Of a stretch of DNA of 55,500 nt, positions 477-53,240 are shown one piece after another. Under the pieces are notes generated by a model. It made no database searches, was not told the origin of the DNA, and worked only from the letters and a program-made list of their open reading frames with translations. Numbering within the stretch: the stretch's first letter is position 1; every line of letters begins with the position of its first letter. A program made the translations under genes and the position numbers. The DNA is taken from contig JAKAVV010000018.1 of the NCBI GenBank assembly GCA_021817145.1, positions 1 through 55,500 on the forward strand, read 5' to 3'. The stretch comes from a bacterium (lineage in GTDB: Bacteria > Vulcanimicrobiota > JABDET01).

Positions 477-1935
477 AAAGATAGAGATGGATTTGGTCCA
501 TTTTTGCCATGCTGCGCAGTTTATAAGAGAGCAGTAGTTTCTGATGACTTAAAAACCATTTAGAAATTTTCAGATGGTGATCCACAAGAGAAGCTTGACA
601 TAAAACAAGCCATACCAGCCCTCCGCTTTTTTCTTTCACTTTTACATAATTTTCTACTCCTGGGAGGCTGCTGGTTGATACTGGGATAACAAAAGTAAAC
701 CGCTTGCTTGGTTTTTCAATAATGAAATATCGCCGCTGCACTCCAATCCACCGAGTAGGAAAATAACGAACAAGATAACACCACAATGGATAAATTGACA
801 TGGGGGACTCCACAAAAACAACGTTTACATTTTTCATGTTCTTCACCATTATCTTTGCCGCTTCCCTCCAATTCTGCCTCTGAAAGGCCGGACCTGTAAG
901 AAATAAAACCCAAATTGATACATTCATAAACAGCAGCGCCCCATAAACCGGATAAGCAGTCATTCCAGGAAGACTGAAAACCCCATACACAAATAAAAGA
1001 AAAAAATACGGAGCAAATAAAACAACATAACGAAAAATAAAGATATGCCGCGGAGTAAAATAGGAAATGCAAAAAGGAACCACAAAAGGAACCCAAAAAA
1101 GCAGCAGCAAAAAAATAGCCTCTTCCCTTTTCTTCTTAAACAAAAGAATAGATCCAAAAATTAATGCCGCAAGAGAAAAAATAGAACTTAAATCAACAAG
1201 AAAATGGCGGATCATAAAATACCTCAAGTTCAAAAGCATTCCAAAATAAATGAAAGAAGCGTACCAGGTGGCTCGCGGCATATGAGTGTCAATGGCATGA
1301 AAAAACTGAAAGAAAAAGATAGGGGTCCAGAGAGAAAAAATTAACGTTAAAATTAAGGGAACCCATACCGCCTCCTTCCACCTCTTCCGAGTTAAAAGAA
1401 ATATCCACTGCGCCATGATAATAAACCCTGTATAATAATGCGTATAAAGAGAAAGAGAAGCAAACAAATAATATAAAACCCAACTCCTCTTTCCCCCCTC
1501 CTTATACGCTCTCCAAAACCAGTAAGTGGAAAGCAGAGCAAAACAAGTCGCATAAGCATACATCCGAATCTCAGTATCCACATTCAGAGATTCCATGGCG
1601 CAAGCCCAAAAAACAGCCGCTAAAATCCCCTGCTTCTCCCCTAACAACTCTTTTCCAAGAGCATAAACCACTAAACAACTCATAACACCACAAATCACAG
1701 AAGGAAATCGAAGATAAGCCGCGCTGTCCCCTCCTTTCATCCAGTAATGCAAAAATACATAAAAAATAAAGGGATGGGCATCATAAGGGATCAATTTCAT
1801 GAGAACAGGAAGAGGATGAGAAGCCATCCAAACACTAAACCCTTCATCCATCCACAAAGACTGCTTCCCCAAAAACAAAATGCGCAGCAAAAAAGCTGAC
1901 AGCCCAATTAAAAAATAGTTCCGAAATCTTTTCAT
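406..1935 (-). CDS. GT39/ArnT-like membrane glycosyltransferase, copy A
   Basis: This is a polytopic membrane protein of about 509 residues with roughly ten hydrophobic segments. Near the N-terminus is the acidic pair in WMDEGFS, in the first extracytoplasmic loop, typical of C-type (GT39/PMT/ArnT) transferases that use polyprenyl-phosphate sugars. THYYTGF and TPRHIFIFRY also match the family layout. I place the start at MKRF because the neighbouring copy starts there; an ATG eight codons upstream would overlap that neighbour. It is the last gene of a minus-strand glycan operon. Compared with copy B it is nearly the same over the first ~370 residues and diverges towards the C-terminus. The likely role is glycosylation of a cell-surface molecule; donor and acceptor are unknown. 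Confidence 0.8.
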   Translation of the reverse strand: MKRFRNYFLIGLSAFLLRILFLGKQSLWMDEGFSVWMASHPLPVLMKLIPYDAHPFIFYVFLHYWMKGGDSAAYLRFPSVICGVMSCLVVYALGKELLGEKQGILAAVFWACAMESLNVDTEIRMYAYATCFALLSTYWFWRAYKEGGKRSWVLYYLFASLSLYTHYYTGFIIMAQWIFLLTRKRWKEAVWVPLILTLIFSLWTPIFFFQFFHAIDTHMPRATWYASFIYFGMLLNLRYFMIRHFLVDLSSIFSLAALIFGSILLFKKKREEAIFLLLLFWVPFVVPFCISYFTPRHIFIFRYVVLFAPYFFLLFVYGVFSLPGMTAYPVYGALLFMNVSIWVLFLTGPAFQRQNWREAAKIMVKNMKNVNVVFVESPMSIYPLWCYLVRYFPTRWIGVQRRYFIIEKPSKRFTFVIPVSTSSLPGVENYVKVKEKSGGLVWLVLCQASLVDHHLKISKWFLSHQKLLLSYKLRSMAKMDQIHLYLFSSSLKGFSFHEEHRKTKEQEGH

Positions 1936-1948
1936 CTCAAATCGCGCT

Positions 1949-3457
1949 TTACTTTCCAAAATCCCTTGGCATCTGTTCTGGCTTCTTAGAACTCATAAGA
2001 TAAAGATAAATTATACCTATTTTTGTAATGCTTCGCAATTTATAAAAATGCAGCACTTTCTGATGACTTAAAAACCATTTTGGAACCTCTAACCGGTGAT
2101 CCACTAGATAAGGCTCGCATAGAACAAGCCATTCTCTTTTACCTGCTTTTTTCCCCAATCTTATATAATTTTTCACACCAGGCAGGGAAGCTGCAGATAC
2201 AGCGTAAACTGGAACAAAGCGTTTACTGCGCTTTTCAATAAAATAAGACAGCTGCTGCTCCCCTATCCAGCGGACAGGGAAATATTGAGAAAGATAATAC
2301 CATAAGGGATAAATAGACATATTCTGCTCCACAAAAACAACATTTACCTTTTTCATGTTCTTCTCGATAATATGAGCTGCTTCCCTCCAATTCTGCCTTT
2401 GAAACGCAGGACCTGTAAGAAATAAAATCCAAATTGATAAGTTCATAAACAACAGCGCCCCATAAATCGGATAAGCTGTCATCCCAGGAAAACTGAAAAC
2501 CCCATACACAAATAAAAGAAAAAAATAAGGAGCAAATAAAACAACATAACGAAAAATAAAAATATGCCGAGGAGTAAAATGGGAAATGCAAAAAGGAACC
2601 ACAAAAGGAACCCAAAAAAGCAGCATTAAAAAAATAGCCTCTTCCCTTTTCTTCTTAAACAAAATAACAGACCCAAAAATTAAAACCAAAATAGAAAAAA
2701 TAGAACTTGCATCAACGAAAAGATGGCCGCTCATAAAATACCCTCTGGCATTTAAAAACATTCCCAAAAAAGCAAAGGAAGCATACCAGGTGATCCGGGG
2801 CATACCTTCATCAATCGCATGAAAAAACTGCAGGAAGAACACAGGAGTCCAGGGGGAAAAAATTAAAGTCAAAATTAAGGGAACCCATACCGCCTCCCTC
2901 CACCTCTTCCGAGCTAGAAGAAAAACCCACTGCGCCATTATAATAAACCCTGTATAATAATGTGTATAAAGAGAAAGAGAAGCAAACAAATAATATAAAA
3001 ACCAATTTTTCTTCCCCCCCTGCTTATACGCTTTCCAAAACCAAAAAGTGGAAAGCAGAGCAAAGCAAGTCGCATAAGCATACATTCGAATCTCTGTATC
3101 GGCATAAAGAGATTCCATTGCGCAAGCCCAAAAAACAGCGGTTAAAACCCCTTGCTTCTCCCCTAACAACTCTTTCCCAAGAGCGTAAATTGCAAGACAG
3201 CTGATCACTCCGCAAATCACAGATGGAAATCGAAGATAAGCGGTTCCACGTCCCCATTTCATCCAATAATGCAAAAAAAGGTAAAAAATAAAGGGATGGG
3301 CATCCTGAGAAATTAATTTCATCAGTACAGGAAGCTTGTGGGAAGCCATCCAAACACTGAACCCTTCATCCATCCACAAAGACTGCTTCCCTAGAAACAA
3401 AATGCGCAGCAAAAAAGCTGACAGCCCAATCCAAAAATAGTTCCGAAATCTTTTCAT
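1949..3457 (-). CDS. GT39/ArnT-like membrane glycosyltransferase, copy B
   Basis: This 502-residue polytopic membrane protein begins MKRFRNYF and carries WMDEGFS with the catalytic-type Asp-Glu pair of lipid-phosphate-sugar-dependent transferases. It is a close tandem copy of the next gene downstream (406-1935): long stretches match at both protein and nucleotide level, which points to recent duplication. The C-terminal ~130 residues differ more (for example VDHRLEVPKWFLSHQK against VDHHLKISKWFLSHQK), suggesting the periplasmic domain is diversifying. Its ATG overlaps the stop of the upstream gene by 4 bases, so translation is probably coupled. Family assignment is firm; substrate is unknown. 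Confidence 0.82.
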   Translation of the reverse strand: MKRFRNYFWIGLSAFLLRILFLGKQSLWMDEGFSVWMASHKLPVLMKLISQDAHPFIFYLFLHYWMKWGRGTAYLRFPSVICGVISCLAIYALGKELLGEKQGVLTAVFWACAMESLYADTEIRMYAYATCFALLSTFWFWKAYKQGGKKNWFLYYLFASLSLYTHYYTGFIIMAQWVFLLARKRWREAVWVPLILTLIFSPWTPVFFLQFFHAIDEGMPRITWYASFAFLGMFLNARGYFMSGHLFVDASSIFSILVLIFGSVILFKKKREEAIFLMLLFWVPFVVPFCISHFTPRHIFIFRYVVLFAPYFFLLFVYGVFSFPGMTAYPIYGALLFMNLSIWILFLTGPAFQRQNWREAAHIIEKNMKKVNVVFVEQNMSIYPLWYYLSQYFPVRWIGEQQLSYFIEKRSKRFVPVYAVSAASLPGVKNYIRLGKKAGKREWLVLCEPYLVDHRLEVPKWFLSHQKVLHFYKLRSITKIGIIYLYLMSSKKPEQMPRDFGK

Positions 3458-16720: not shown

Positions 16721-16763
16721 ATCCTTAAGAGCAGTAAAAATTCAATTATCAGGAGGAGAAAAA

Positions 16764-17615
16764 ATGGGTGGAGTCGGAAGCGTATTAAACAATATCGGAT
16801 CATCAGTTTCAAATGCCGTTAACACAGCAGGACAGGCTGTGAGCGGCGGACTGAATACTGCAGGACAGGATGTCAGCGGCGGACTGAACACAGCAGGACA
16901 GGATGTCAGCGGCGGACTGAACACAGCAGGACAGGATGTCAGCGGCGGACTGAATACTGCAGGACAGGATGTCAGCGGCGGACTGAACACAGCAGGACAG
17001 GATGTCAGCGGCGGACTGAACACAGCAGGACAGGATGTCAGCGGCGGACTGAACACAGCAGGACAGGATCTTGCAAATGGAAGCAATTGGGTTCAGAACG
17101 AAACGGATTCAGGAACGCAGTGGCTTAATCAAGGCGCGGATCAAAGAATTGATGGATTTGAAAATTCTTCTATTGGCAACAATGTGGCAGGTCATGCCCT
17201 TGGGACCGTTGCTAAGACTTGGGTCGGGTTTAATACCGGAAGTATTGCAGGTTTGGTTTCAACAGGAACTTCGATGGGTGAATTTGTAGGCGCAGGTTTG
17301 GAAGCAGGAAGCGGACACGGTTGGCACCCACTTTCAGGCGAGGTTGGAAAACTCCCAGGTGATTTACAAAAAGATCCCGCCTATGCGTTTGGAGATGGCG
17401 CAGGCATGATTGCAGGAGCGTTACTGACAGGTGACATTGGAGATATCGGAGATATCGGAGACGTAGGAGACGCCGTAGATGCCCTTAATTATGCACAATT
17501 AGGCACAGACAGCATTACTGCAGGGATAAATATAGGGCAATCCATCATGAATGGAGCTTTGAACATCACACAAATGGGAACTGATGGATTTTCAATTATT
17601 ACAGATCTTGCCTAA
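16764..17615 (+). CDS. MGG-type protein with eight 11-residue repeats, unknown function
   Basis: I do not recognise this 283-residue protein. The start is the ATG at 16764, eight bases after a consensus AGGAGG; an upstream extension to 16608 has no such site. After MGGVGSVLNNIGSSVSNA come eight tandem 11-mers, consensus LNTAGQDVSGG. Hydrophobic residues at positions 1, 5 and 8 would line one face of an 11/3 helix, as in synuclein, LEA and perilipin repeats. The rest is Gly/Ala-rich with helices such as VAGHALGTVAKTWVGF and FGDGAGMIAGALL, and a GDI/GDV run. No signal peptide or cysteine is seen. A paralogue follows at 17867, and a third gene at 32247 has the same start. The frame stays open for 24 codons beyond the TAA. 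Membrane or lipid binding is a guess from the repeat. Confidence 0.6.
   Translation: MGGVGSVLNNIGSSVSNAVNTAGQAVSGGLNTAGQDVSGGLNTAGQDVSGGLNTAGQDVSGGLNTAGQDVSGGLNTAGQDVSGGLNTAGQDVSGGLNTAGQDLANGSNWVQNETDSGTQWLNQGADQRIDGFENSSIGNNVAGHALGTVAKTWVGFNTGSIAGLVSTGTSMGEFVGAGLEAGSGHGWHPLSGEVGKLPGDLQKDPAYAFGDGAGMIAGALLTGDIGDIGDIGDVGDAVDALNYAQLGTDSITAGINIGQSIMNGALNITQMGTDGFSIITDLA
16818..17081 (+). repeat. 33-bp in-frame tandem repeat, eight copies
   Basis: Eight head-to-tail 33-bp units encode the 11-residue repeats. The first (16818-16850) and last (17049-17081) copies are diverged. Copies 2-4 and 5-7 form two identical 99-bp blocks: each begins with a unit containing AATACTG, followed by two containing AACACAG. 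The last expansion was therefore a 99-bp duplication, and the copy number could change by slippage or recombination. Confidence 0.9.
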
Positions 17616-17627
17616 GGCGTATGTGGA

Positions 17628-17654
17628 GCAATTAAAGCAATTAAAGCAATTAAA
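17628..17654 (+). repeat. 9-bp tandem repeat, three copies
   Basis: GCAATTAAA is repeated three times, in the same frame as the preceding gene but after its stop codon. Read through, it would encode Ala-Ile-Lys repeats. Confidence 0.7.
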
Positions 17655-17758
17655 GAAGGAAGGGTAGGAGAAAGTAGCAGAGTGTGTTGAGAGATTGGGA
17701 AAAATTTGTGACTTTTTATCAATTTCCAAAAGTGCATTGGAAACATTTAAGAACCTAC

Positions 17759-17787
17759 GTGACGAGAGCTCAAAATAGATCTATAAT
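17759..17787 (+). promoter_or_regulatory. Putative sigma70-type promoter of second MGG-type gene
   Basis: GTGACG (17759-17764, four of six matches to TTGACA) is separated by 17 bases from a perfect TATAAT (17782-17787). It would give a 5' leader of about 70 bases before the ATG at 17867, suggesting the second repeat gene has its own promoter. Confidence 0.5.
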
Positions 17788-17866
17788 AAACATAGAGAAT
17801 CACCCGAAAATCACCTTGTGACGGGAAACTTAGAAGACAATATTAAAAAATAAGGAGGAGAAAAAA

Positions 17867-18298
17867 ATGGGTGGAATAGCAAACGCAGTCAGCGGCGCAT
17901 TAAACACAGCAGGACAAGATATAAACAGTGGGCTGAACACGGCAGGACAGGATATAAGTGGTGGACTAAATACCGTGGCACAAGGAGCGAATTTTGGAGG
18001 CGATATCATTGGGAATACGTTCAGCACTGTAGGGGATGCCTTGGATAGTGATGTCGGAGACTGCTTAAGCACAGCTGGTGATTCTTTAAGCACAGTGGGG
18101 GATGTATTAAGTAGTAATCTTGCTGGAATGCTGAGTGATGCTGGATCCCTTGGAGAGGATGCAGCAGCCCTGGCTCCAGATGCTGTGGATCTTGGATGTG
18201 ATGCAGTAGGAGGAATTTCAGGTTTTGGAGGGATCATTATGTACGATCTGGCTGGACTATCAGGTGTAAACCCGAACAATCCTAATCCGACAGCATAA
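17867..18298 (+). CDS. MGG-type protein with degenerate 11-residue repeats, unknown function
   Basis: A paralogue of the preceding gene. The 143-residue product begins MGGIANAVSGA after an AAGGAGG site and has LNTAGQDINSG, LNTAGQDISGG and LNTVAQGANFG, then a looser continuation of the same period (FSTVGDALDSD, LSTAGDSLSTVGDVLSSNLAG). Hydrophobic residues every three to four positions fit an amphipathic helix. The C-terminal third is Ala/Gly/Asp-rich with an uncharged stretch (ISGFGGIIMYDLAGL) and ends in NPNNPNPTA. Two cysteines are present; there is no signal peptide or long membrane helix. The tandem position and shared repeats indicate local duplication. Function unknown. Confidence 0.6.
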   Translation: MGGIANAVSGALNTAGQDINSGLNTAGQDISGGLNTVAQGANFGGDIIGNTFSTVGDALDSDVGDCLSTAGDSLSTVGDVLSSNLAGMLSDAGSLGEDAAALAPDAVDLGCDAVGGISGFGGIIMYDLAGLSGVNPNNPNPTA

Positions 18299-32246: not shown

Positions 32247-32498
32247 ATGGGTGGTATCGCAAATTTAGTGGGAAGCGCAATTAGTGGAGTGACTCAATTA
32301 GCTGAAGCTCCTTTACAGCTTTTATCAGGAGGGGGAAGTGGTGGAGGAGGTTCTGCTCTGCCAGGATTAGGCGCTGTCGCAGGGGTCGCAGGAGATTTAT
32401 TTGGAGGGGCTGGAGCAGCAGCTGGGGCTGGTGGAGCAGCAGCTGGTATTGGCGGCATCCTTTCAGATGTCCTACCTGCTGTTTTAGCTTTCTTGTAA
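32247..32498 (+). CDS. Third MGG-type small protein, Gly/Ala-rich, unknown function
   Basis: This 83-residue protein starts MGGIANLVGSAISGV after a GAGGAGG site, the same start and spacing style as the two repeat genes at 16764 and 17867. It then has a Gly/Ser linker (LSGGGSGGGGSALPG) and a long Gly/Ala-rich stretch ending in LSDVLPAVLAFL. It lacks cysteines and is nearly uncharged. The stop codon is followed at once by the 72-bp repeat array. Its composition resembles small membrane-active or secreted peptides, but no family is recognised. It could be a short relative of the 11-mer proteins sharing only an N-terminal module. Function unknown. Confidence 0.55.
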   Translation: MGGIANLVGSAISGVTQLAEAPLQLLSGGGSGGGGSALPGLGAVAGVAGDLFGGAGAAAGAGGAAAGIGGILSDVLPAVLAFL

Positions 32499-32499
32499 A

Positions 32500-32708
32500 C
32501 ATCCTGTCGGTTCTTGTTCGGAGAGGAGTTCGGCTTCCATGCCTCAAATCCAATCCCGAATAAGAACCTGACATCCTGTCGGTTCTTGTTCGGAGAGGAG
32601 TTCGACATCCATGCCTCAAATCCAATCCCGAATAAGAACCTGACATCCTGTCGGTTCTTGTTCGGAGAGGAGTTCGACATCCATGCCTCAAATCCAATCC
32701 CGAATAAG
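32500..32708. repeat. 72-bp tandem repeat, three copies, each with inverted arms
   Basis: Units start at 32500, 32572 and 32644 and are almost identical; the last is cut after GAATAAG. Within each unit GTCGGTTCTTGTTCGG pairs with the reverse complement of CCGAATAAGAACCTGAC, and GAGG/CCTC can pair inside, so each can fold into a long hairpin. The period is a multiple of three, so several frames remain open across it without being genes. It begins one base after the stop of the third MGG-type gene. Confidence 0.9.
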
Positions 32709-32754
32709 ATGGACAAAATAGAGGAAATAGTAAAAAGCTCAAAAAAAGAGAGAC

Positions 32755-49170: not shown

Positions 49171-52100
49171 ATGATTAAAGAAAAGAGGAACCAGTTTTCC
49201 CTAGAAATTTGGGTTTTCCTCCTTTTCCTTTGGATCTCTTTTTTCTCATACCAATATGCCTGGGGATCTCCACAAGGTGGAACTGTTTCTGCAGGTCAGG
49301 CTGTTATTAGCCAGAGCGGGGGAACAACCATGATTCAGGAGTTAACGAACAGCGCGATTATTAACTGGAACAGTTTTAATATTGGGGCTGGTCAGCTGGT
49401 TCAATTTTTACAGCCAGGGGCTTTATCTGCCATTTTAAACCGAGTGATTGGGGGGAACCCTTCTCTGATTTTCGGAACTTTGAAATCCAATGGAATAATT
49501 TTTTTAATTAACCCGAACGGAATTTTGTTTGGTCAAGGATCAGAGATTGACACAGGCTCTTTTATCTCCTCAACTTTAAATATAACCAATCAAGATTTTT
49601 TAAACAGAGATTATACTTTTAATCAGATTTCAACACTCCCAGCCTCTTTTATTGTGAATCAAGGAACGATACAGGCTAGGGATGGTGGTTCTGTGGTCTT
49701 ATTGGCTCCATTCGTGTATAATGGGGGGACGATTATTGCGAATTTAGGGGATATTGGATTAGGGGCAGCCACTCATGCTGTATTAAGTTATGATAAGGAA
49801 GGATTAATGAATTTAGTGTTGAGTAATCCCGCTGGAGTGCCTCAGAATGTAACGATGACTCAGCAAGCTTATACAGCGATTTTGCAGCAAGTAGTGAATG
49901 ACAAAGGGCTTCTTCCTGCCACTCAAGTGAAAGAAGTGAAAGGGAAAATTGAGCTGAGGACCGCGAACAAGAGCTGGATGAAAAGAGATGTCGAGAATAG
50001 ATTTGGGGCTGTGGGTAGAAACAGAGTGAGTACTGGGTTATGGGATACAAGCGGGGGGATCGTTATACCGAATACAAGTGGGACTCTTGTGAATGCTGGA
50101 ATCATTGAAGCGAATGGAGCTTCGAATCTGAATGCTGGGAGCATTACTCTTAATTCCACCCAGGCCACAGATCTCCTGACCAACAGCTTGATTTCAGCGA
50201 ATGGGGAAGGGAGCGATTCCAATGGAGGCAGCATTACAGTCAATTCCCAAGGAAGAACGAATTTTGAGTCAGGGGCAGAAATTGAAGCAGAAGGAGGGGC
50301 AAGCGGGAATGGAGGGACAGTAGAAGTCAGTGATAAAACAGGGGGGATAATTAATGGGAACGTCAATACAGAAGCCCCTGATGGAACAATAGGGACATTT
50401 TTAATCGACCCCACTGATTTAGTGATAACAGATTCTTCAGCAGGTTCAGGAGATCAAGATTCCAACCTTCCCTGTATTCTATTTTCAACCCCTGATACCA
50501 CGAACAACACGGTTTCAGTCGGTTCGCTTGAATCTCAAACCAGCAGCATTGTTCTCCAGGCAGCCAGCTCTATTACCATTGACAATCTTTCAAATACACC
50601 AGCCAATGGATCGATCACTCTTCAGCCCAACGTTTCCCTTACCCTGCAAACTGAAACAGGAAACATCACGTTTAATAACACAGGAAATTCAATTGTAACA
50701 AGTGGAACAGGCAGCATCACAATTGAAGCAGGTGAACAAAGTGGTTCAGGAGGAGCAGCAGCATTGGGAAACCTCACTACATCTAATCAAAATGTTACAG
50801 TAAGCGCATCGGGAAATATTAGTTTTAGCGCTATTTCAGCAGGAACAGGAACAGTTTCTATCTCCTCTTCTGAAGGAGCGATTCAAAGCGGAACCATTAC
50901 TGCCAATAAGTTAATTCTTCAAGCAGCTGATGGAATTGGAACCAGTGGAGCCCCGCTGACCACAACAGTCTCTATGCTCCAAGCCTACAATACCCTTTCT
51001 AATGGAATCTTTATTAACAATACGGGAAATTTAACTCTTGATGATTATTCATTAGGGAATGGCGCGGGAATTGAAAATATTGGAACAGGGGGGATTTCCT
51101 TAAACAATTCAGGATCAGTGGATTTTCCAGGGTCAACCAGCTTTTTCGGGCTGTACGCCCCAAATGGAGGGAATATCACGGTAAATGCAGCGGGATCCAC
51201 ATCGAACATCACTTCTTGTGATGGAACAGCCTGTACAGGAATGATAACCGCTGAATCAGATGGAGGAAGTATCAGTTTTACAGCAGGGGGTGGAATTAAT
51301 CTTGGAGTGAATGGATTTGCCGATATTCATACTGATTATTCCAATGCTTCTGGAGATAATGGGGGATCCATTACTATAAATGCTTCTGGTGGAGATCTGA
51401 ACATTGAAAATGGAACTTATCTTGGAACCAATACAGGAAACCTTTCTCTGACTGCCAGTGGAAATATTGGAATAACCGGGGGATCTCAAATTTACACTGA
51501 AACCACAGGAACTATTTCTTTGAATTCTGGAGGGGGGATCACTCTTGACAATACTTCCAACATCTATTCACAAGGGAGTGGAGAGATTAATTTAAATACA
51601 GGTGGAGCCATCAGCCTGGCTAACACCATTTACAACAGCGCAAATGGAAATATAAATATTACAGGGTCTTCTCTTTTTACCCCTACTGTTTTACCTCCTG
51701 GTGTTCCTGCTGTGGCTGCTTATGGAGGAACAGTTACTCTAACTGCCACAGGTTCAGGGGGGATTGGTTCAAGCTCAAATTACTTCCCTGTTCAAGCATC
51801 TTCCTTGAATTTGACAGCAAGTTCCTCTGGAGCGCCAATCTATCTTAATGATAATTCTTTATCAGAGCCAGTTACTTCTTTTTCTGTGACAACTAATAAT
51901 GGTCCTGTGGGAATAACAGCTTTTAATGTTTCAAGCCCTGTTTGTTTTAATGCTGCAGGATGCGCGGGAGATGCTTTAAGCGCTGCTTTTACCAGTGGAT
52001 TGAATAATTTTTCATTTGACAATACCGGCGGAAATATTATTTTAAATTCAGCCATTAATGCTGGAACAGGAACAGTTTCTCTAACCGCTTCTTCCGGCTA

Positions 52101-52854
52101 TATTGCCAATGGAACAACTCCTGGAACCATTACAGCCAATACCCTTACTCTTTCTTCTGCCAATGGAATCGGATGGAATGGAACAACCGCCTCCTCAATA
52201 TCCACCAATGCAGCCAATCTCACCCTTACCACCACAACCGCTAACACCGCTCAAATGAATGTGGCTGACACCAATTCACTGTCTAATTTGTCTGTTACCA
52301 CAAACAACAGCTCTGCTGGGATTACAGCTTCCAACATTTCTGGCTCCTTTGCTTTCAGCGAAAGCGCAGACAACTTAAATGCGCAGTTTACAGGATCCGC
52401 TTTGTCCAGTTTTCTGTTTGACAACACAGGTGGAAATATCATTTTAAACGCTAATATTAATGCTGGGACAGGAACTGCCACTTTAACTGCTTCTTCCGGC
52501 TATATTGCCAATGGAACAACTCCTGGAACCATTACAGCCAATACCCTTACTCTTTCTTCTGCCAATGGAATCGGATGGAATGGAACAACCGCCTCCTCAA
52601 TCTCCACCAATGCAGCCAATCTCACCCTTACCACCACAACACTTAACACTGCCCAAATCAATCTGGCTGACTCTGGGTCACTATCCAGCCTCTCTGTTAC
52701 TACCAACAATAGTTCAGCCGGAATTACTGCCTCTAATATCAATGGAACCTTAAGTTTTGCAGGGGGATCAGGAGCAAGTAATCTTTTAAGCGTCAATTTT
52801 ACCAGTGGATTAACCAACTTTTTATTTGACAATACGGGTGGAAATATTGTTTAA
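49171..52854 (+). CDS. FHA/TPS-type giant exoprotein, N-terminal part, ends at a frameshift
   Basis: This 1227-codon frame begins with a long signal peptide (IWVFLLFLWISFFSYQYAWG) and the TPS secretion domain of two-partner exoproteins: GTVSAGQAVISQSGGTTMI, NSFNIGAGQLVQFLQPG, LKSNGIIFLINPNGILFGQGSEIDTGSF. After residue ~400 it becomes long Gly/Ser/Thr/Asn-rich beta-helix repeats with GNI and TITAN motifs. No TpsB partner is in the window. The frame stops at TAA 52852-52854 because one T is missing from a T run at 52850-52852; the protein continues in the next frame to the window end. It is probably a cell-surface adhesin or biofilm protein, expressed from its own promoter. Confidence 0.9.
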   Translation: MIKEKRNQFSLEIWVFLLFLWISFFSYQYAWGSPQGGTVSAGQAVISQSGGTTMIQELTNSAIINWNSFNIGAGQLVQFLQPGALSAILNRVIGGNPSLIFGTLKSNGIIFLINPNGILFGQGSEIDTGSFISSTLNITNQDFLNRDYTFNQISTLPASFIVNQGTIQARDGGSVVLLAPFVYNGGTIIANLGDIGLGAATHAVLSYDKEGLMNLVLSNPAGVPQNVTMTQQAYTAILQQVVNDKGLLPATQVKEVKGKIELRTANKSWMKRDVENRFGAVGRNRVSTGLWDTSGGIVIPNTSGTLVNAGIIEANGASNLNAGSITLNSTQATDLLTNSLISANGEGSDSNGGSITVNSQGRTNFESGAEIEAEGGASGNGGTVEVSDKTGGIINGNVNTEAPDGTIGTFLIDPTDLVITDSSAGSGDQDSNLPCILFSTPDTTNNTVSVGSLESQTSSIVLQAASSITIDNLSNTPANGSITLQPNVSLTLQTETGNITFNNTGNSIVTSGTGSITIEAGEQSGSGGAAALGNLTTSNQNVTVSASGNISFSAISAGTGTVSISSSEGAIQSGTITANKLILQAADGIGTSGAPLTTTVSMLQAYNTLSNGIFINNTGNLTLDDYSLGNGAGIENIGTGGISLNNSGSVDFPGSTSFFGLYAPNGGNITVNAAGSTSNITSCDGTACTGMITAESDGGSISFTAGGGINLGVNGFADIHTDYSNASGDNGGSITINASGGDLNIENGTYLGTNTGNLSLTASGNIGITGGSQIYTETTGTISLNSGGGITLDNTSNIYSQGSGEINLNTGGAISLANTIYNSANGNINITGSSLFTPTVLPPGVPAVAAYGGTVTLTATGSGGIGSSSNYFPVQASSLNLTASSSGAPIYLNDNSLSEPVTSFSVTTNNGPVGITAFNVSSPVCFNAAGCAGDALSAAFTSGLNNFSFDNTGGNIILNSAINAGTGTVSLTASSGYIANGTTPGTITANTLTLSSANGIGWNGTTASSISTNAANLTLTTTTANTAQMNVADTNSLSNLSVTTNNSSAGITASNISGSFAFSESADNLNAQFTGSALSSFLFDNTGGNIILNANINAGTGTATLTASSGYIANGTTPGTITANTLTLSSANGIGWNGTTASSISTNAANLTLTTTTLNTAQINLADSGSLSSLSVTTNNSSAGITASNINGTLSFAGGSGASNLLSVNFTSGLTNFLFDNTGGNIV

Positions 52855-53240
52855 ATTCAGGGATCAATGCAGGGGCAGGAACAGTTTCTCTCCTCTCCCC
52901 TTCCGGCTATATTGCCAATGGAACAACTCCTGGAACCATTACAGCCAATACCCTTACTCTTTCTTCTGCCAATGGAATCGGATGGAATGGAACAACCGCC
53001 TCCTCAATCTCCACCAATGCAGCCAATCTCATCCTTACAACCACAACACTTAACACTGCCCAAATCAATGCAGCTGACTCTGGTTCACTATCCAGCCTCT
53101 CTGTTACTACAAACAACAGCTCTGCTGGAATTACTGCCTCTAATATCAATGGAACCTTAAGTTTTGCAGGAGGATCAGGAGCAAGTAATCTCTTGAAAGC
53201 CCAATTTACAGGTTCAGCTCTTACCACTTTTTCCTTTGAC
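52018..53240 (+). repeat. Three ~134-137-codon beta-helix repeat units in the FHA-like gene
   Basis: The marker FDNTGGNI-type sequence begins units at 52018, 52420 and 52828, and a fourth, diverged unit begins at 53238. Spacing is 402, 408 and 410 bases. Within the units, blocks such as TTCCGGCTATATTGCCAATG and GGAATCGGATGGAATGGAAC are nearly identical, indicating recent duplication. The 410-base spacing, one base short of a codon multiple, marks the frameshift in the third unit. Confidence 0.85.

Follow-up and report, generated by a model that had tools for sequence, protein, structure and literature searches.

The window analysed here, a 55,500-nucleotide stretch of contig JAKAVV010000018.1, includes two adjacent genes, P1 and P2, that code for proteins starting with MGG and carrying repeats of the LNTAGQDVSGG type, each located behind an AGGAGG site. 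This arrangement, described in an earlier sequence-only reading of the region, was confirmed by the open reading frames, TRF analysis, and reading of the repeats. A third MGG protein, M3, is encoded elsewhere in the window. In what follows G000 is the source genome, G001 is that of a congener, and L numbers designate loci of relatives or paralogues. The relevant features are:

16751-16756, plus strand: Shine-Dalgarno-like AGGAGG of P1, from the sequence.
16764-17615, plus strand: P1, a probable toxin-less carrier paralogue; ORF of 283 amino acids with an ATG start and an MGG N-terminus, located beside yebC as is L005.
16818-17081, plus strand: P1 hendecad array, eight 11-residue units (amino acids 19-106) within the helix predicted for amino acids 2-110.
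17076-17468, plus strand: P1 carrier-homologous region (amino acids ~105-235), which matches the N-terminal carrier of toxin-bearing paralogues.
17469-17612, plus strand: P1 C-terminal tail (amino acids 236-283), located where the paralogues have their toxin domains; low-confidence helix.
17616-17866, plus strand: P1-P2 intergenic region, searched by tblastn.
17853-17858, plus strand: Shine-Dalgarno-like AGGAGG of P2, from the sequence.
17867-18298, plus strand: P2, MGG protein of 143 amino acids with P1-like N-terminal 11-mers and an L005-like C-terminus.
32247-32498, plus strand: M3, an 83-amino-acid MGG protein, rich in Gly and Ala and lacking Lys and Arg, that starts with MGGIANLV; it is syntenic in G001 with 88% identity.

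Neither an intrinsic terminator nor a convincing promoter was found around P1 and P2. The Shine-Dalgarno arrangement ahead of P1 is also present ahead of L005, its homologue in G001. No toxin or immunity gene adjoins the two genes, tblastn detected zero remnant of known toxin or immunity sequences between or within them, and the P1 tail (amino acids 236-283) has no domain recognisable in Pfam, NCBIfam, PHROGs or the PDB. The minus strand of the P1 repeats includes a mirrored ORF of 114 amino acids. Elsewhere in the window, the minus strand between nucleotides 406 and 4998 codes for three membrane proteins, adjacent and paralogous to one another and each about 500 amino acids long, that by eye resemble glycosyltransferases.

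TRF defined a 33-nt (11-amino-acid) array at 16821-17069 with 7.5 copies, a 95% match, and a score of 456. Six of the eight 11-mers of P1 are exactly LNTAGQDVSGG, and P2 includes only two clear 11-mers (amino acids 12-33) together with looser ones. A 33-residue higher-order unit can be distinguished in P1 as a 99-nt duplication at the DNA level. Because this unit shows only in silent codon changes (AAT ACT / AAC ACA / AAC ACA, found twice), it suggests a segmental DNA duplication and not a functional unit of 33 residues. For the repeats of P1 the hydrophobic moment has its maximum at 98 degrees, as in an 11/3 helix, with a value of 0.32, and the mean hydrophobicity is 0.17; since about 9% of within-unit shuffles match this value, the moment by itself is suggestive, modest evidence for an amphipathic helix. 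Stronger evidence comes from L005, a repeat protein of the same genus whose moment likewise peaks at 98 degrees, and from four toxin-bearing carriers that are divergent and lack exact repeats, in which the peak lies at 99-100 degrees and the lag-11 autocorrelation of hydrophobicity is 0.34-0.50. AlphaFold2 predicted a single helix for amino acids 2-110 of P1, limited evidence in view of the mere five sequences in the alignment, with pLDDT values of 80-93 in the initial 50 residues and of 42-56 in the others; confidence is low beyond the first 60 residues of the protein, and a Foldseek search with the model returned no match. The proposal of 11-residue amphipathic helical repeats is thus supported by the 11/3 peak in P1, L005, and the divergent carriers as well as by the predicted helix.

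Searches with P1 and P2 of Pfam, NCBIfam, and PHROGs, and of the PDB with P1 only, gave no credible match, in agreement with the earlier view that the family is an unrecognised one. Library matches of P1 and P2 to MSP1b, collagen-middle, and tape measure models were discarded as being of the composition type only, and the PDB entry 9rkv (E 0.06-0.11) was dismissed for the same reason. Phage, plasmid, and viral-contig searches found nothing real, the single phage match (E 0.07) being a tape-measure protein. When the non-repeat part of P1 was used as query, a paralogue was found in its own genome (L016, 3.4e-11), and the G001 search yielded L012 (3.4e-14) and L017 (6e-10) in addition to weaker matches. 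A profile that included P1 (A1) added L029 and L030 and located the family in four of the 149 genomes of the phylum that were searched. Homologous carriers occur in the source genome, in its congener, and in two genomes of the phylum that are less closely related. The genomes of the relatives include the MAG ACE_ERE1, deposited as Candidatus Eremiobacterota, and the MAG FK4.bin95, of the same genus. Matches of a profile built on the repeats (A3) in other genomes of the phylum look, on reading, like low-complexity or wrong-frame sequences. In such genomes L051:919-1782 and L057:994-1917 represent an unrelated family with amphipathic, hendecad-like arrays at the C-terminus, such as GIASGAKYVGNGIASGAKHVG.

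To control for composition, a profile made from six homologues without P1 was compared with P1 and with 991 shuffles of the same residues. Amino acids 105-283 of P1 scored 69.1 bits against a best of 15.2 for the shuffles (n=991), and this homology is to the carriers of polymorphic toxins. P2 scored 9.4 bits with the carrier profile, inside its own shuffle range (up to 11.0); its link to P1 lies in the shared repeats and in L005, the form with a single gene, and does not involve the carrier domain. In the full-length carriers a hendecad helix is joined to a helical region rich in Ala and Gly that Pfam does not match, and the carrier domain has as motifs ..W(V)xN..D..xDxFExSxxGxNxxG.. and ..KDPAxxxGxxAGxxGxxxLTGG... 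The sequence-only reading had named homologues within a known family of different fold as a result that would refute it. No such result was obtained in that form: the homologues fall into a known type of system, that of toxins, but into no curated family of carriers. The MGG start is supported as a family feature that extends to toxin-bearing members of the genus. In L012/L033, L016, and L017/L032 it is specified by TTG, GTG, and TTG start codons, respectively, followed by GGN GGN and preceded by AGGAG-like sites, and L029/L030 have (M)SWWGGI. A DNA pattern combining the Shine-Dalgarno site with MGG, applied to the source genome, had its spacing fixed too strictly and missed even P1 and P2.

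The C-termini of the homologous carriers are of the RNase A, PI3/PI4-kinase-like or DnaJ type, or unassigned. Polymorphic toxins are marked by the pairing of a single homologous N-terminal region with C-terminal domains of several kinds (PMC3482391), and the family as a whole has this organization, a conserved N-terminal region followed by variable C-terminal domains of toxin type. The whole RNAse_A_bac model was matched by L030 (2e-5), L029/L035 (1.1e-4), and L012/L033 (2.8e-3), in all cases under the Pfam cut-off (25.8 versus 27 bits for the best). The AlphaFold model of L035, confident in the RNase domain only, had 5E3E as its top Foldseek match (E 1.5e-4, prob 1.00). This structure is the CdiA-CT of Yersinia kristensenii, a member of the RNase A superfamily described as an RNase A toxin (PMC9086364). 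L030, L033, and L035 resemble this CDI effector in carrying an RNAse_A_bac C-terminal domain, with the fold match obtained for L035, and in having a small ORF where an immunity gene would be expected. They differ from CDI in that the carrier is not the filamentous-haemagglutinin protein CdiA and the immunity candidates are dissimilar in sequence to the CdiI of 5E3E. The small ORFs directly 3' of the three RNase-type toxins are homologous to one another, and a conserved small ORF also follows the kinase-type loci; from their position these ORFs may have an immunity role. A profile of the RNase-type candidates showed no convincing match to a solved structure.

The kinase-type members, L016 and L017/L032, matched PI3_PI4_kinase (6e-10) and TIGR03843 (7e-19). 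Beside the kinase-type locus, L032:9857-11122 has a weak Peptidase_Mx match (9.7e-4) and may share the island. L014:997-2253, on the minus strand, is a carrier homologue with weak N-terminal LysM and C-terminal DnaJ matches, and the C-terminus of L013/L034 has no assigned domain. L031, in G001, is a short carrier fragment (1456-1734, minus strand), apparently without an MGG start, that adjoins a PLD-like protein (1803-3158, plus strand; PF13091 6.6e-20); it is possibly a decayed toxin locus. As for P1 and P2, no toxin domain was matched in Pfam, NCBIfam, or PHROGs, nor in the PDB, which was searched with P1 only. Because of this, and because there is no remnant downstream, P1 was classified as a toxin-less paralogue rather than as a toxin; it seems to be the common MGG/hendecad helix in an expanded form, with no recognised toxin.

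In G001 the place of P1 and P2 is taken by a single syntenic gene, L005, beside yebC. L005 aligns to P1 in its N-terminal repeats and in the region upstream of the gene, and to P2 in its C-terminal half, and it keeps an open frame and eight repeats in spite of nucleotide divergence. From the comparison of these two genomes, its structure would be explained by a deletion in which the P1 repeats recombined with those of P2, or by the reverse expansion. M3 has in common with P1 and P2 only the start MGG[IV]xxx[VL] and does not resemble the carrier profile; placing it in the same system is a guess. Directly 3' of M3 there is a 72-nt tandem repeat with 2.9 copies (32499-32709).

A signal peptide is not evident by eye in P1, P2, or the carriers, and none of them matched WXG/LXG, PAAR, FHA/TPS, DUF4157 or other known export domains in Pfam. 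In the source genome, a draft that is 97% complete, searches with a single marker for each system gave no match to VipB (T6SS), Phage_sheath_1 (contractile systems), WXG100 (WXG-type T7SS), or VirB4 (T4SS), and the matches to the HlyB model (T1SS) were far under the cut-off and missed its N-terminal part, with no full-length HlyB-type exporter among them. Since there is neither an evident signal peptide nor any of these five export-system markers, the delivery step is left without a known machine. The TPS domain is absent from the carriers, although one exoprotein of the window (49171-53191, plus strand) has it (PF05860 2e-28); the 3' part of this gene includes three copies of a 407-bp tandem repeat. 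A secreted role, raised earlier as a possibility for P1 and P2, is supported as such.

With a probability of about 0.5, we interpret P1 and P2 as toxin-less members of a lineage-specific polymorphic-toxin family that work beside the toxin-bearing paralogues. The N-terminal part of the family, i.e. MGG in the genus, the hendecad helix, and the carrier in full-length forms, is common to proteins with different C-termini; since it is shared by proteins whose payloads differ, it may serve export or surface docking and self-association. Self-association would also agree with the composition of the hendecad helices, as small residues (Ala, Gly, Ser, Thr) suit helix-helix packing. P1 and P2 would then be extra docking or scaffold units next to the toxin-bearing paralogues, and their repeats could act as a substrate for recombination, L005 resembling the N-terminus of P1 fused to the C-terminus of P2. 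Lineage-specific N-terminal domains of polymorphic toxins have been described before, namely MafB-N of Neisseria, Microscilla-N, and APD1/APD2 of Amoebophilus, for which surface anchoring or homotypic clustering was proposed (Zhang et al. 2012, PMC3482391). The P1 family is like them in having a lineage-restricted constant N-terminal module with C-termini of different types. Unlike them, it has an MGG start with no evident signal instead of a signal peptide or lipobox, a carrier without a Pfam match, and repeat-expanded toxin-less forms.

P1 could instead be an orphaned polymorphic toxin whose toxin-immunity cassette was lost, with P1 and P2 persisting by chance or as acceptors of new cassettes and without a present function, a possible but less favoured history. 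Displacement of cassettes is typical of polymorphic toxins (PMC3482391), P1 has no toxin, and the L031 fragment shows that decay happens; however, the frames of both genes are open behind strong Shine-Dalgarno sites, the repeats are uniform at the protein level, the syntenic L005 has kept its frame and eight repeats while its nucleotides diverged, and no cassette remnant was found by tblastn. We regard as tentative, and rather doubtful, a more specific proposal in which the MGG start and the hendecad helix are the export and docking signal of an undescribed, signal-peptide-independent route for antibacterial toxins, with P1, P2, L005, and perhaps M3 as structural parts rather than cargo. That P1 and P2 are themselves small membrane-active or pore-forming effectors, with the amphipathic helices and C-terminal tails as the toxin, seems very improbable: helical Gly/Ala-rich tails do sit where the paralogues have toxin domains, but a downstream immunity gene is absent, the proteins are strongly acidic, and neither Pfam nor NCBIfam gave a toxin match. 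The mirrored minus-strand ORF could also suggest a low-complexity repeat that arose by chance, or an artefactual ORF on the opposite strand. This idea is hardly credible given the Shine-Dalgarno sites, the MGG start conserved across paralogues, and the synteny and open frame in G001, and it is refuted by the homology far above composition-matched shuffles (69.1 versus 15.2 bits).

The sequence-only reading had drawn an analogy to synuclein, LEA, and perilipin-4 repeats, from which P1 and P2 might coat a lipid droplet, a storage granule or a membrane. The repeats of P1 and those of perilipin 4 and synuclein are alike in the 11/3 period, small residues, low hydrophobicity, and a 33-residue unit, the latter at the DNA level only in P1, and perilipin 4 too binds through many weak 11-mers (PMC5889406). 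The 11/3 amphipathic period, with its mean moment of 0.32 and mean hydrophobicity of 0.17, and the helix predicted by AlphaFold2 would fit such a coat, but nothing apart from this geometry speaks for it. The chemistry is different: basic residues and a favourable charge on the polar face are missing, as the P1 repeats include no Lys or Arg and have a net charge of -7 over 88 residues, and a HeliQuest-style discriminant was <=0 in every segment scored. Plin4 lost its droplet targeting when the net charge of each 33-mer was reversed, +1 becoming -1, except where hydrophobicity was increased (PMC5889406), which argues against the coat in P1. Moreover, the LEA families of Pfam were not matched by P1 or P2, and the homology of P1 is to bacterial toxin carriers. 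The likeness to these lipid binders was therefore not borne out in kinship or chemistry, and a lipid coat is unlikely; P1 and P2 more probably belong to a bacterial weapon system than to the lipid-coating or storage proteins.

As toxin-less members of a polymorphic-toxin family, P1 and P2 would no longer be seemingly low-complexity proteins with a possible lipid-coat function but part of a family for toxin delivery, in a bacterial lineage that has been little studied. No curated model exists for the carrier, which occurs in a small number of the phylum's genomes and is present in a host genome without recognised machinery for the export of signal-less toxins; it could therefore provide a handle on how these toxins exit the cell. 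For the forms with expanded repeats and no toxin, a role as structural partners is suggested.
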